Shown here: piece by piece, positions 5,519-52,507 of the stretch
How the letters are laid out: each line of letters opens with the position of its first letter
Position numbering within the stretch: the first letter of the stretch is position 1
NCBI RefSeq assembly: GCF_021611515.1
Contig: NZ_CP090960.1
Location: 186,001-250,000 of the forward strand
Source of the DNA: Mariluticola halotolerans
GTDB taxonomy: Bacteria > Pseudomonadota > Alphaproteobacteria > Rhizobiales > Devosiaceae
DNA: 64,000 nt
Direction of reading: 5' to 3'
Program-made: the position numbers and the translations under genes
Notes under the pieces: generated by a model
Database searches by the model: none
The model's input: the letters and a program-made list of their open reading frames with translations, nothing else
What the model was told of the DNA's origin: nothing

Positions 5519-5658
5519 TGTGGGGGCCACCGCGTCATTCCCCTTTTTGCCCGGACTTGCAGGTATGCCGTGCGCCCATTATGATGGGGCACGCGAGGAC
5601 GACCTCCCCCATAAGGGCATGATTTCGGGACGACCCGGTGATTTGAATGGGGGCAGTA

Positions 5659-47339: not shown

Positions 47340-47852
47340 TCAGGTCTTTTTGCGGAAACTGTCGAGGCTGACGACTTTTTCGCCGTTATCCTTGGCGTCT
47401 TCTTCGCCATCGGCTTCGGCGGCAGGTGCATCGGTTTCAGCGTCATTGTCGCTGCCGATTTCGCTGTCGTCTTCTTCGCCTTCTTCGACGCCTTCGCCAC
47501 CAACGTCAAATTGCAGACCGAACTGCACGGAGGGATCGAAAAAGCCCTTGATGGCGGAGAAGGGAATGTCGAGCAGTTCTGAATGGCCGTCAAACGAGAG
47601 GCCGACGGTGAAACCGGTATCGGTGACCTTGAGGTCCCAGAACTGGTTCTGCAGAACGATGGTCATTTCCTTTTCATACTGGGCAAGCAGACGCTCGCTC
47701 AGGCGCACGCCGGGGGCGCGGGTGACAAAGGAAATGAAAAAGTGGTGTTCGCCAGGCAGGCCGGTCTTGGCCACTTCGGTCAACACTTTGCGCACTACGC
47801 CGCGTAGCGCTTCTTGCGCAAGAATGTCATAACGAATGTGGTCTTCGGCCAT
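47340..47852 (-). CDS. sspB: ClpXP adaptor SspB, alphaproteobacterial type
   Basis: 170 residues. The N-terminal ~125 residues are the substrate-binding fold (IRYDILAQEALRGVVRKVL, HHFFISFVTRAPGV, FWDLKVTDTGFTVGLSF). An acidic, disordered linker (EEGEEDDSEIGSDNDAETD in the middle) leads to the C-terminal ClpX-docking tail GEKVVSLDSFRKK. It captures ssrA-tagged proteins and hands them to ClpXP. It lies right next to the tmRNA gene, which makes those tags. Confidence 0.94.
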   Translation of the reverse strand: MAEDHIRYDILAQEALRGVVRKVLTEVAKTGLPGEHHFFISFVTRAPGVRLSERLLAQYEKEMTIVLQNQFWDLKVTDTGFTVGLSFDGHSELLDIPFSAIKGFFDPSVQFGLQFDVGGEGVEEGEEDDSEIGSDNDAETDAPAAEADGEEDAKDNGEKVVSLDSFRKKT

Positions 47853-47955
47853 TTGGGCCCTTCCTAGCTGCTCGAATCCTGATCAAGTTCCCGCAATAGA
47901 CGCCAAAAGCGCCATAGAGTTCAAGGCTTTTCGATACGGTTTCTTGAGATTAAGT

Positions 47956-48270
47956 GCAGGCTTCTGTTGCCAGGTGCCTGCGAACCCCGCCTAACCCCTG
48001 CGAGGAGGTTAGGGCTTTAATTCGAGACTATCGAACCGCTTACGCAGCCAGACGTGCCTCAGCATAGTTGTTATCATTTGCAACTATAAAAATGGTCCGA
48101 TGCGGTGGTACCATGCCGAGCAAAAACTTACCCTTTACACCCTCGTCGATCCTATTTCGCCCCCATAACAAACTTCCCGCAAAGGAAGGTTTTGGTGGAG
48201 GCGCCGGGTACCGCCCCCGGGTCCGAATGGTTTATTACGATAGCCATTTATTGCCATAGCTGTTGCCAGC
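47956..48270 (-). ncRNA. ssrA: Circularly permuted two-piece tmRNA
   Basis: Minus strand. The acceptor piece comes first: ~48270 to 48193, ending CGCCTCCACCA with an encoded CCA. A ~28-nt intervening loop (48192-48165) is removed, then the coding piece starts at 48164 with GGGGGCGAAAT. The two ends pair as the acceptor stem (GGGGGCG with CGCCTCC, one G-U). The tag reading frame starts with GCA at 48081-48079 and ends TAA at 48042-48040, encoding ANDNNYAEARLAA. A pseudoknot-like hairpin and a GCAGGC/GCCTGC stem close near 47956. Both cleavage-side hairpins carry CTGGCAACAG. The outer limits are approximate. It rescues stalled ribosomes. Confidence 0.95.
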
Positions 48271-48276
48271 ACGCCC

Positions 48277-48304
48277 AATATAGGGGTTCACGCGGCGATT
48301 GCAA
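48277..48304 (-). promoter_or_regulatory. Sigma70-like promoter of ssrA
   Basis: On the minus strand TTGCAA (48304-48299) and TATATT (48282-48277) are spaced by 16 bp. This places the transcript start a few bases downstream, at the expected start of the acceptor piece near 48270. Confidence 0.6.
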
Positions 48305-48354
48305 AGGCGCGCTGCCGGCAATTTATAAAAATGACGAAAAATTGCGTCATCATG

Positions 48355-48381
48355 TGTCGATCGGCAGCTTGCCCGTTCGTC
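48355..48381 (+). promoter_or_regulatory. ECF42-type promoter of the MAPEG gene
   Basis: TGTCGA at 48355-48360, then 17 bp, then CGTC at 48378-48381. The same pair with the same spacing, and with a shared CCGTTCGTC, precedes the YCII/sigma operon at 48821-48847. This matches the bipartite motif described for ECF42 sigma factors (TGTCGA at -35, CG[A/T]C at -10), as I recall it. The ATG follows 35 bp later. Confidence 0.65.
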
Positions 48382-48416
48382 CTCTTGCATCACCAAGATA
48401 TTCAAGAGGAAACGAC

Positions 48417-48818
48417 ATGACGGCTCATATTACCGCGCTTTATGCGTGCTTGCTGACGATCGGGGCAATTGTTCTCACCAATATGGTGAGCGCCCGGCGC
48501 GGAAAGCTGAATATCTCAATACTTTATGGGGATGACGACATGTTGCCAGTGCTGGTGCGGCGACACGGGAATTTTGTGGAGAATGTGCCACTGGCGCTAT
48601 TGCTTTTGTTGCTGAGTGAACTGGGCGGCATGGCGGGTGTTTATCTGCATGCGATGGGAATTGTGCTGATTGTGTCGCGCCTGCTGCATGCGATTGGCCT
48701 TAGCGCCACCCAAACGTCTGCGCCGCTGCGTATTGCAGGGGGCGTGGGGACCCAATTGGTGATGCTGTCGGCTGTTATCTTCCTGTTGTTTCAACAATTT
48801 TTGATTTTTTCAAACTAA
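48417..48818 (+). CDS. MAPEG-family membrane protein
   Basis: 133 residues from the ATG at 48417 (AAGAGGAAA upstream). Four membrane helices: ~5-25, ~55-75, ~78-98 and ~110-130. RHGNFVENVPLALLLLLL and RLLHAIGL are typical MAPEG (membrane-associated eicosanoid/glutathione metabolism) patterns; YecN-like bacterial members may detoxify with glutathione. A longer frame from 48105 crosses the tmRNA and is false. It has the same promoter motif as the neighbouring YCII/sigma operon, suggesting it is part of that regulon. Confidence 0.88.
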   Translation: MTAHITALYACLLTIGAIVLTNMVSARRGKLNISILYGDDDMLPVLVRRHGNFVENVPLALLLLLLSELGGMAGVYLHAMGIVLIVSRLLHAIGLSATQTSAPLRIAGGVGTQLVMLSAVIFLLFQQFLIFSN

Positions 48819-48820
48819 CG

Positions 48821-48847
48821 TGTCGATTAGGCGGTTTACCGTTCGTC
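48821..48847 (+). promoter_or_regulatory. ECF42-type promoter of the YCII/sigma operon
   Basis: TGTCGA at 48821-48826, 17-bp spacer, CGTC at 48844-48847. It has the same sequence elements and spacing as the MAPEG promoter. Autoregulation by the sigma factor encoded in the operon is expected. Confidence 0.7.
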
Positions 48848-48892
48848 TTGAAGTGTTGCCTCGTGTGAGGCGTTTCATCCAGGAGATTTAAA

Positions 48893-49252
48893 ATGAAGTA
48901 TATGGCCTTGATCTATGGTGCTCCCGAGGATTCACCGACACCCGAATCCGAAGAGTTTGGGCCTTTTATGGAAGCCTATGCCGCTGCGAGCGAACGCTTT
49001 GAAAAAGATGGCGTGCTGGTTGCAGGAGAAGGGCTGGAAGACGATTCTACCGCGACGACGCTGCGGGTGCGCAATGGCAAGGTGGAAACGATGGATGGCC
49101 CGTTTGCTGAAAGCAAGGAACAGCTTGGGGGTTTCTATATTTTCGAATGCGCCAATCTTGATGAGGCCTTGCGGTATGCTGCGATGATCCCGTCTGCCAC
49201 TTATGGGGCAGTCGAGGTGCGTCCCGTGTCGGATTACAGCGATTTGGAGTGA
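48893..49252 (+). CDS. YCII-domain (DGPF-type) protein paired with ECF sigma
   Basis: 119 residues. Begins MKYMALIYGAPEDSPTPESE; the family hallmark MDGPFAESKEQLGGFYIFE occupies ~65-84. YCII/DGPF proteins have a ferredoxin-like fold and nearly always stand next to ECF42-class sigma factors, whose activity they may influence; their biochemical role is unsettled. AGGAG lies at 48880-48884. The sigma gene begins 10 bp after its stop. Confidence 0.9.
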   Translation: MKYMALIYGAPEDSPTPESEEFGPFMEAYAAASERFEKDGVLVAGEGLEDDSTATTLRVRNGKVETMDGPFAESKEQLGGFYIFECANLDEALRYAAMIPSATYGAVEVRPVSDYSDLE

Positions 49253-49262
49253 CAAGAGGTCT

Positions 49263-50510
49263 GTGACAACATCTGTGGGGCCAGAAATTGATGCACTGGT
49301 TCGCCGTGATGGCGGGCGGATGTTGTCACGCCTTGTTGCGGATATTCGCGACTTTCAGCTTGCCGAGGACAGCCTTCAGGACGCCCTGGAGGCTGCCCTT
49401 GTGCATTGGGACCGTTCCGGCCTGCCGCGCTCGCCGGTGGGGTGGCTTTTGCAAACGGCCCGGCGCAAGGCGATTGACCGCATTCGGCGCAGCGCCAATT
49501 TCCGGTCCAAATCCGCTGAACTGACAGCCTTGATTGAACTCGACCGTGATTTTGAACCGGTAATCGATGCCGACCCGATTGCCGATGAGCGGTTGAAGCT
49601 GATTTTTACCTGTTGTCACCCGGCGCTGGCGCCCCGGATTTCGGTGGCGCTGACCTTGCGCTCGGTATGCGGGCTGAAGACGGAGGAAATAGCCCGTGCC
49701 TTTGTGATGAGCCCGGAGGCGATGGCGCAAAGACTGGTGCGGGCCCGGCACAAGATTGCCAAGGCCGGGATTGCCTATGAGGTGCCTGAGGCTGACGGAT
49801 GGGGGGAGCGGCTGCAAAGTGTGCTGGCGGTGATCTATCTGGTTTTCAACGAGGGCTATGCTGCCTCGTCAGGCGAACTGGTGCGTGGGGAGCTTTGCGA
49901 CGAAGCCATACGTTTGGGCCGGCTGGTGCACCAGTTGTGCCCCGGCGAGCCGGAGGTTGAGGGATTGCTGGCCCTGATGTTGTTGCACCATGCGCGCAGC
50001 AACACGCGGCTGGGGCTGGCGGGAGAGCTGGTGACGCTGGAGGGGCAGGACCGGACGCAGTGGGACCGGGAGATGATTGGCGAGGCGCGGGAGATATTGC
50101 AGGGCGCGTTGCGCCGGGGGCGAGCCGGGCTTTATCAATTGCAGGCAGTGATCGCCATGATCCATGCGGATGCGCCCAGCTTTGCAGAGACTGACTGGAC
50201 CGAGATTGCGCTGATCTATGACAGTTTGATTGCTGTTGAGCCCAATCCTGTGTTTGAACTGAACCGGGTTGTCGCCTTGTCCTATGCGGTATCTGCCGAG
50301 ATGGCGTTGAAACGCCTCGAGAGGGTTGGGGCGGCGCTTGAGAGCTATCAGCCCTATCATGCGGTGCGGGCGGACCTGCTGGTGCGGTTGGGGGACATGA
50401 CGGCGGCAGGGGCGGCATTTGAGCGGGCAATCGCGCTTTCAGGCTCGGCGGCGGAGCGGCGATTTCTGGAGAACAAGTTGCGGGCCTTTTGCGGCCAAGG
50501 CTGCACCTGA
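49263..50510 (+). CDS. ECF42-class RNA polymerase sigma factor with C-terminal extension
   Basis: 415 residues from the GTG at 49263. Sigma2 region at ~15-85 (DFQLAEDSLQDALEAALVHW, GWLLQTARRKAIDRIRR) and sigma4 at ~115-170 (ALTLRSVCGLKTEEIARAFVMSPEAMAQRLVRARHKI, in overlapping parts). The remaining ~240 residues are a helical TPR-like domain (DUF6596-like, GYAASSGELVRGELCDEAIRL) characteristic of ECF42 and thought to control activity in place of an anti-sigma factor. Co-operonic with the YCII gene. Its likely promoter motif occurs at least twice nearby. Confidence 0.9.
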   Translation: MTTSVGPEIDALVRRDGGRMLSRLVADIRDFQLAEDSLQDALEAALVHWDRSGLPRSPVGWLLQTARRKAIDRIRRSANFRSKSAELTALIELDRDFEPVIDADPIADERLKLIFTCCHPALAPRISVALTLRSVCGLKTEEIARAFVMSPEAMAQRLVRARHKIAKAGIAYEVPEADGWGERLQSVLAVIYLVFNEGYAASSGELVRGELCDEAIRLGRLVHQLCPGEPEVEGLLALMLLHHARSNTRLGLAGELVTLEGQDRTQWDREMIGEAREILQGALRRGRAGLYQLQAVIAMIHADAPSFAETDWTEIALIYDSLIAVEPNPVFELNRVVALSYAVSAEMALKRLERVGAALESYQPYHAVRADLLVRLGDMTAAGAAFERAIALSGSAAERRFLENKLRAFCGQGCT

Positions 50511-50587
50511 ATGCGCCAGTGAGCTGGTGTCTTTTAAGGGATCGGTTGTGTGGATGCGGCGGGTGTCGGCAGTGGGCGCATTGCTGG

Positions 50588-50624
50588 TGTGCGTCTGCGT
50601 ACTGTACAATCGGTCCGACGCACA
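50588..50624. promoter_or_regulatory. Inverted repeat in the leader of the DEAD-box helicase gene
   Basis: TGTGCGTC (50588-50595) and GACGCACA (50617-50624) form a perfect 8-bp stem around a 21-nt loop containing TGTACA. The 50511-50734 gap has no convincing gene; it may be a structured 5' leader, as is common for cold-induced RNA helicases. Role inferred only. Confidence 0.35.
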
Positions 50625-50734
50625 GTAAGAACGGCGTCTTGAGCTTCCTTTAGCGCGTTTGATCGTGGCGCTGCAGGTGAATTTAGACGATCCGCTGCCG
50701 GGCGCGACAGGCCCCCGCATTCCGAAAGACAAAT

Positions 50735-52507
50735 ATGACAGAGTTTGAAGGCGTCGTGCCGGCACTTAGCCAGGCGTTGACCAATCGCGGTTACACTGAC
50801 CTGACCCCGGTACAAAAGGCCATGCTGGCCCCCGAGTTGCGCGATGCGGATGCGCTGGTTTCCGCGCAGACCGGCTCGGGCAAGACCGTGGCATTCGGCA
50901 TGGCGATGGCCCCGACGCTGCTGGATGCGGATGACCGCTTCACCCGTCCGGATTCGCCTTTGGCGCTGGTGATCGCGCCGACGCGCGAACTAGCCTTGCA
51001 GGTGAAAAAAGAGCTTGAGTGGCTTTATGCGCTGACCGGTGCCTTTGTGGCCTCGTGTGTTGGCGGCATGGACATGCGCACCGAGCGGCGGGCGCTGGAG
51101 CGTGGCGCGCATATTGTTGTGGGCACGCCGGGCCGTTTGCGTGACCATATCACGCGCCGGTCGCTGGATATGTCTGGCTTGCGCGCTGTGGTGCTGGATG
51201 AAGCTGACGAAATGCTTGATCTGGGCTTTCGGGAAGATCTGGAATTCATTCTGGAATCTGCGCCTGAAGAGCGGCGGACGCTGTTGTTTTCCGCTACCGT
51301 GCCGAAGTCGATTGCCAATCTGGCGAAAAGCTATCAGCGCAATGCTGTGCGGGTGGCGACCGGATCTGAACAAAAGCAGCATCTGGATATTGAATACAAG
51401 GCACTGCCGGTGCCGACGGCTGACCGCGAGAACGCCATTATCAACGTATTGCGCTTTTATGAAGCGCAGAATGCGCTGGTTTTTTGTGCGACACGGGCAA
51501 CCGTCAATCACATGACGGCGCGGTTCAACAATCGCGGCTTTTCTGTTGTGGCGCTGTCGGGCGAATTGAGCCAGAGCGAGCGCACCCATGCGCTGCAAGC
51601 CATGCGCGACGGGCGGGCACGGGTGTGTATCGCCACCGATGTTGCGGCACGCGGCATTGACTTGCCGGGGCTGGAACTGGTGGTGCATGCCGATTTGCCG
51701 ACCAATCCGGAAACCCTGTTGCACCGCAGTGGCCGCACGGGCCGGGCCGGGCGCAAGGGCGTGAGTGTTTTGATTGTGCCGCAGAACGGGCGCAAGCGGG
51801 CCGAGCGCCTGTTGGGTGCGGCCAAGATTACCGCTGTTTGGGACAAGCCGCCCTCGATTGATGACGTGCTGAAGCGGGATGACGAGCGCTTGCTCTCCGA
51901 CCCGGATCTCAACACGCCGATTGCGGATGAGGAACGGGCGTTTCTGGCTGAATTGCTGGAAAAGCACGGGCCGGAGCAGATTGCGGCGGCCTTTGTGCGG
52001 CGCTATCGCGCGGGACGTTCGGCACCTGAAGAACTGATGGATGTGCCCGCTGGCCCCGACAGGGGTGCGCCGCGTGGCGAGAAGAAAGAGCGCCGCGAGG
52101 GCTTTGAGAAAAGCGTTTGGTATTCGATCTCGGTGGGGCGCAAGCAGAATGCGGAGCCGCGCTGGCTGCTGCCGATGCTGTGTGGCGCGGGGCAATTGTC
52201 CAAGCGTGACATTGGCGCGATCAAGATGCAGCAGGACGAGACCTTTGTGGAACTCGATGCGCGCTGTGATGACCGGTTCAAGGCCGCGATTGGCCCCAAC
52301 AAGACGCTGGAAAAGAATATCACGGTGAAGGCGCTGGATGGCGTGCCGAGCTTTTCCAATGATGGTGGCGGCAGCCGCCAGCCCTATGCGGGCAAAAAGA
52401 CCGGCGGCAAGCCGAACTTTGAAAAGGCGGGTTTCAAGGGCCGTAAATCCGGCGCTGCGACCGCAATGAAAAAGAAAAAGCCGAAGAAAAAGCCGCGTCC
52501 AGAGTAG
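50735..52507 (+). CDS. DEAD-box RNA helicase with DbpA-like RNA-binding domain
   Basis: 590 residues. Q motif near the start (LTNRGYTDLTPVQKAML), motif I AQTGSGKT at ~45-52, PTREL near 80, DEAD at ~156-159, SAT near 189, and helicase C motifs ARGIDLPG and HRSGRTGRAGRKG. After ~450 comes a DbpA/CsdA-type RRM-like domain (ISVGRKQNAEPRWLLPMLC... FVELDARCDDRFK). The tail is Lys/Gly-rich and basic. It likely remodels ribosomal RNA during ribosome assembly. Close to DeaD/DbpA; no symbol assigned. Confidence 0.92.
   Translation: MTEFEGVVPALSQALTNRGYTDLTPVQKAMLAPELRDADALVSAQTGSGKTVAFGMAMAPTLLDADDRFTRPDSPLALVIAPTRELALQVKKELEWLYALTGAFVASCVGGMDMRTERRALERGAHIVVGTPGRLRDHITRRSLDMSGLRAVVLDEADEMLDLGFREDLEFILESAPEERRTLLFSATVPKSIANLAKSYQRNAVRVATGSEQKQHLDIEYKALPVPTADRENAIINVLRFYEAQNALVFCATRATVNHMTARFNNRGFSVVALSGELSQSERTHALQAMRDGRARVCIATDVAARGIDLPGLELVVHADLPTNPETLLHRSGRTGRAGRKGVSVLIVPQNGRKRAERLLGAAKITAVWDKPPSIDDVLKRDDERLLSDPDLNTPIADEERAFLAELLEKHGPEQIAAAFVRRYRAGRSAPEELMDVPAGPDRGAPRGEKKERREGFEKSVWYSISVGRKQNAEPRWLLPMLCGAGQLSKRDIGAIKMQQDETFVELDARCDDRFKAAIGPNKTLEKNITVKALDGVPSFSNDGGGSRQPYAGKKTGGKPNFEKAGFKGRKSGAATAMKKKKPKKKPRPE

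Follow-up and report, generated by a model that had tools for sequence, protein, structure and literature searches.

Promoter motif conservation suggests that a MAPEG membrane protein gene belongs to the regulon of an adjacent ECF42-type sigma factor

ECF42 sigma factors form a group for which we know of no anti-sigma factor and for which, to our knowledge, the signals and most of the targets are not known. RpoE10 from S. meliloti, whose gene has YCII beside it, belongs to this group, and Table 1 of PMC6180224 gives three promoters for it, all of which read TGTCGG-N17-CGTC by our own count of the spacing; the promoter of SMc01149 carries CTTGG after CGTC as well. According to that paper, overexpression of RpoE10 in S. 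meliloti raised six genes and left its own YCII gene unraised, which suggests that autoregulation by ECF42 factors may not be universal. The mapped start of that YCII gene overlaps the motif, the RpoE10 targets reported there are glyoxalase-like and hypothetical genes, and the term MAPEG is absent from the main text. PMC8999054 proposes that ECF42 factors are gated by their C-terminal extension, possibly together with YCII.

In the window, i.e. the whole 64-kb stretch of DNA analysed here, genes for a MAPEG membrane protein, a YCII protein and an ECF42-type sigma factor follow each other (Table 1), and all three identities named in the original prediction were confirmed by Pfam profiles (PF01124 for MAPEG, PF03795 for YCII, and sigma regions 2 and 4 together with DUF6596 for the sigma factor). 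The sigma2 and sigma4 domains lie above the cut-off and sigma3 is lacking; a Pfam profile search of the window sigma factor at E 0.001 returned no further sigma domains. DUF6596, which we take to be the mark of ECF42, matches residues 183-282 of the 415-residue protein with 122.8 bits and makes up a long C-terminal extension, in which no tetratricopeptide repeat was matched at E 0.001; the second ECF42 factor of this genome has a single such match, below the cut-off. The sigma gene is read here from GTG, the open reading frame listing beginning at ATG 49203, and its start follows the end of the YCII gene after a gap of 10 nt. The adjacent YCII gene is itself consistent with membership in ECF42, and no anti-sigma factor was identified among the neighbours of the window cluster.

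Table 1. Genes and candidate promoter sites of the MAPEG-YCII-ECF42 cluster in the window.
Feature	Position	Strand	Details
ECF42-type promoter of MAPEG	48355..48381	+	-35 TGTCGA 48355-48360, N17, -10 CGTC 48378-48381
MAPEG membrane protein, 133 aa	48417..48818	+	PF01124; SD-like AGAGG 48405-48409
ECF42-type promoter of YCII-ECF42 operon	48821..48847	+	-35 TGTCGA 48821-48826, N17, -10 CGTC 48844-48847
YCII (DGPF-type) protein, 119 aa	48893..49252	+	PF03795, E 3.8e-20, 72.6 bits
ECF42-type sigma factor, 415 aa when read from GTG, with a DUF6596 extension at the C-terminus	49263..50510	+	PF04542, PF08281, PF20239

Other features of the window were recorded as well. A divergent alphaproteobacterial tmRNA gene (47953-48309, minus strand) flanks the MAPEG promoter on the side away from MAPEG. 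It is directly upstream of, and on the same strand as, sspB (47340-47852, minus strand), whose product is an adaptor for the delivery of tmRNA-tagged proteins to ClpXP. Positions 5591-5638 match the Guanidine-II (mini-ykkC) riboswitch above the Rfam gathering score.

The pair of TGTCGA-N17-CGTC sites that had been predicted, one before MAPEG and one before the presumed YCII-ECF42 operon, is present at the positions given in Table 1 with identical spacing, and the stretch CCGTTCGTC that both were said to share forms the 3' end of each. No further match to TGTCGA-N17-CG[AT]C occurs on either strand of the window, and dinucleotide shuffles of the window give a mean of 0.14, with two or more matches in one of 100. 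The distance from site to ATG is 35 nt for MAPEG and 45 nt for YCII-ECF42, with an SD-like sequence at each ATG. The site before YCII places a TGTCGR-N17-CG[AT]C promoter before the operon of the sigma factor itself, and its motif likewise precedes YCII in relatives that lack MAPEG and in some that have it. The original prediction had pointed to an ECF42 promoter motif that these sites would fit, and the three RpoE10 promoters of PMC6180224 (Table 1 therein) bear this out; by analogy with SMc01149 in that table, transcription of MAPEG would be expected to start near 48390.

We scanned the whole genome for TGTCGA-N17-CG[AT]C, as had been proposed for defining the regulon, and obtained 27 matches against 12 for the reversed control, which indicates that many of them are due to chance. 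Open reading frames of at least 150 aa enclose 22 of the 25 matches outside the window, and two (L016 and L025) have no SD-like start within 20-200 nt. The remaining one, a site before hipA (L027), falls within a 140-aa open reading frame. Searching for TGTCGR-N17-CGTC gave 22 matches against 12 in the control, among them a TGTCGG-N17-CGTC site 49 nt before a LysR-type regulator gene that has no SD-like sequence (L033). L027 and L033 resemble promoters most closely after the two sites of the window, and neither was convincing. Since only the two matches in the window are convincingly placed, the predicted regulon for the exact motif is the cluster itself. Allowing two mismatches was uninformative (113 matches, 130 in the control), and regulon members with weaker motifs are indistinguishable from chance in that search.

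A survey of 136 genomes of the same family at E 0.001 identified an ECF42 relative in 123 genomes and a MAPEG relative in 14. MAPEG, YCII and ECF42 are encoded side by side in ten of them, our own included, and in an eleventh (G009, L062) a partial MAPEG gene is located at a contig end. By eye, ECF42-type sites can be recognised ahead of MAPEG as well as ahead of YCII in our own genome (G000) and in G021, G007 and G132; both sites of G021 begin with AGTCGA and the first has a spacer of 16, as does the second site of G132. Devosia geojensis BD-c194 (L109) likewise encodes MAPEG, YCII and ECF42, and sites of the AGTCGA type precede both its MAPEG and its YCII gene. The other six genomes with the cluster have a site before MAPEG only, also by eye: CGTC at N17 in G094 and at N18 in G085, CGTT in G027, G040 and G057, and TGTAGG as -35 element in G114, which is outside the relaxed pattern defined below. 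One close MAPEG relative (L041) has neither an adjacent ECF42 gene nor the motif.

For a broader view of motif conservation, contigs of named genomes were scanned with 12 MAPEG sequences and the best 80 of 156 loci were kept, a pattern that favours MAPEG proteins like that of the window. We counted a locus as linked when the same strand carried an ECF42 gene at most 1.5 kb downstream. The motif was sought up to 110 nt upstream of MAPEG, whose start codon we estimated by means of the profile match. The strict form of the motif was TGTCGA-N17-CG[AT]C; the relaxed form allowed at most one mismatch in TGTCGA, spacers of 16-18, and CGTC, CGAC or CGTT. ECF42 linkage was found for 65 loci among the best 80 of 156. 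The strict motif precedes MAPEG in 42 of these 65 and in none over 100 rounds of shuffling, and the relaxed motif in 63 of the 65 (all but L117 and L132), compared with 1.24 on average and 5 at most over 100 shuffled rounds; the strict count is the cleaner, as the relaxed form was fixed after the sequences had been inspected. Neither form was found at any of the 15 unlinked loci among the best 80 of 156. In a wider set of 109 proteins, the relaxed motif accompanies 68 linked loci and is missing from three (L117, L132 and L051, out of 71), while two unlinked loci have it (L043 and L202, out of 38) and 36 do not.

Linkage requires 5 changes on the MAPEG tree, a quick tree built from few columns, compared with 31.6 on shuffling, where none of 500 shuffles was as low. 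The linked loci share ancestry. Most of them are from Alphaproteobacteria, five are from Betaproteobacteria, and Spirochaetota, Myxococcota and Gammaproteobacteria are the labels of one locus each; several come from metagenome bins. An independent-pairs test on the 109 proteins yielded only one independent contrast on well-supported (starred) branches, too few to be informative, and a single inheritance may therefore account for both linkage and motif.

Of the 71 distinct linked loci, 58 have a tight motif, [TA]GTCGA-N17-CGT[CT], ahead of MAPEG at a distance of 28-65 nt to the start codon, and the consensus of these 58 promoters, gccaTGTCGAAAtc...gCGTcCTTggg, includes the CTTGG extension seen at SMc01149. 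In 54 of the 71 the tight motif stands before MAPEG and not before YCII, in four before both (L040, L045, L108, L143), in three before YCII only (L042, L117, L195), and in ten before neither; with a spacer of 16 allowed, L042, L044 and L195 carry both sites. The window genome falls into the less common group, in which MAPEG and YCII each have their own promoter. Where MAPEG alone has a site and YCII follows after a short gap, MAPEG seems to be the first gene of the sigma factor operon, and this arrangement is the strongest argument for MAPEG as a regulon member. In four loci from the Ensifer/Sinorhizobium group (L128, L129, L134, L146) the MAPEG-YCII gap is 193-342 nt and, by eye, may hold an extra small reading frame.

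The same gene order, with the promoter before MAPEG in those 54 loci, would also suit a MAPEG protein that acts at the membrane as a signalling input, making or sensing a ligand that controls YCII and ECF42, rather than as a mere output; according to PMC8999054, the interaction partner is still to be identified for most of the ECF42 extension, which would leave room for such a role. We regard this as unlikely, as 20 of the 30 ECF42 loci examined in the family have no MAPEG gene within the stretch examined.

A second ECF42 gene, accompanied by two YCII genes, is present in the same genome (G000:C1:2335311, locus L038), and it could in principle drive the sites of the window alone or through cross-talk. 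A site of its own, TGTCGT-N17-CGAC, precedes the first of the two YCII genes (L038:3786-3812, at about 2333785 of G000:C1) in the same layout and with equal spacing, but with another -10 element. We counted -10 classes in clusters with a recognised promoter, dropping duplicates and clusters without one and ignoring relatedness: of 67 MAPEG-bearing clusters, 55 have CGTC, 11 CGTT and one both, and none has CGAC or CGAT, whereas the 19 clusters without MAPEG comprise 12 with CGAC, three with CGAT and four with CGTC. Given this split, and with the ECF42 factor of the window being the adjacent one, control by the second factor is quite improbable. The difference between CGTC and CGAC may insulate ECF42 paralogues within one cell. 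Covariation of the -10 class with sigma factor residues was discarded, being confounded by relatedness (71 versus 12 rows). In a genome of the same family (G084), TGTCGA-N17-CGAC is found 36 nt before the start of a MAPEG gene without adjacent ECF42 (L043:1438-1464), and this gene may have joined the regulon of an ECF42 factor of the CGAC type.

It is very improbable that the site before MAPEG has arisen by chance or survives as a relic, with MAPEG using another promoter and merely neighbouring the sigma operon: many of the genomic matches are indeed chance and L117 keeps the gene order without the motif before MAPEG, but the frequency of the relaxed motif at linked loci far exceeds that in shuffled sequence, the distance from site to start codon spans a narrow range, and a consensus scan of the plus strand from 47900 to 50800, in itself weak evidence, revealed no sigma-70-like site.

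The MAPEG protein matches PF01124 with 59.3 bits (cut-off 23.4) and E 5.4e-16, and an NCBIfam profile search with it gave no match at E 0.01. AlphaFold, supplied with 57 linked sequences, predicts a four-helix MAPEG protein with a pLDDT of 94.6. We relied on fold comparison, as sequence-profile searches of PDB chains with MAPEG alignments returned no match at E up to 1 and then up to 10. Human mPGES-1, MGST2 and LTC4 synthase rank first in VIA-align against the predicted structure, with Z from 15.5 to 13.1 (15.4, 14.6 and 13.8, respectively, by entry name), followed by FLAP and MGST1 (Z 12.5 to 10.7), and the best helical protein from outside the family scores 9.6; Foldseek agrees, with a best E of 6e-4. 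Among the 57 ECF42-linked MAPEG proteins, R48, N52, R88 and R105 are invariant and E55 and H91 are conserved in at least 90%. These residues may correspond to those that bind glutathione in mPGES-1 and LTC4 synthase. The protein was originally described as possibly being of a glutathione/eicosanoid detoxification type. The predicted fold and the partial conservation of this putative site make glutathione chemistry likely; the eicosanoid label is unwarranted, as we know of no use of eicosanoids by bacteria.

Taken together, these comparisons indicate that MAPEG is very probably one of the genes switched on by the adjacent ECF42 factor. The claim that it shares a regulon with the YCII/sigma pair is supported by genomic evidence, namely the match to the RpoE10 promoters, the motif at 63/65 linked versus 0/15 unlinked loci among the best 80 of 156, and the 54/71 layout. 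We consider it highly probable that MAPEG, YCII and ECF42 constitute one autoregulated stress module, in which the active sigma factor would drive both promoters and raise a membrane MAPEG protein that probably uses glutathione. The C-terminal extension of the sigma factor, possibly with YCII, would gate ECF42 activity; the active holoenzyme would then bind TGTCGA-N17-CGTC before YCII-ECF42, creating a positive loop, and also the site before MAPEG, giving an output at the membrane, where the raised four-helix protein would most likely conjugate or reduce reactive lipophilic compounds with glutathione. Use of both promoters by ECF42, co-induction of the genes and enzymatic activity of MAPEG are what we infer from these data. 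That a conserved target is predicted to have the fold of an enzyme suggests a stress caused at the membrane by lipophilic electrophiles or peroxides, and the MAPEG promoter offers a reporter for screening ECF42 inducers. One may speculate further, as a rather doubtful extension, that MAPEG is the membrane arm of an ECF42 subclass and that YCII and the sigma C-terminal extension would read the glutathione product that it makes from a membrane electrophile or a lipid hydroperoxide. Sensing and detoxification would then be joined in one complete circuit that has no anti-sigma factor and is insulated from CGAC-type paralogues in the same cell by its CGTC -10 element.

Judged from gene content and motif, the MAPEG-bearing cluster is a conserved variant of the already known ECF42-YCII module with its promoter. 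Our literature search found nothing linking MAPEG to this module; it did not reach the main ECF42 papers, and an earlier mention is possible. With mPGES-1, MGST2, LTC4 synthase and FLAP, the window protein shares the Pfam MAPEG match and the predicted fold; it differs from them in its 11-23% identity in structural alignments without a PDB profile match, and in being a bacterial protein encoded beside a sigma factor operon. With S. meliloti RpoE10, P. putida ECF-10 and S. venezuelae Sven_0747, Sven_4377 and Sven_7131, as described in PMC6180224 and PMC8999054, the window system has in common a sigma factor of sigma2-sigma4 composition with a long C-terminal extension and an adjacent YCII gene, and with RpoE10 also the promoter TGTCGR-N17-CGTC (PMC6180224). 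It differs from these known ECF42-YCII systems in having a MAPEG gene as a conserved member of the cluster.
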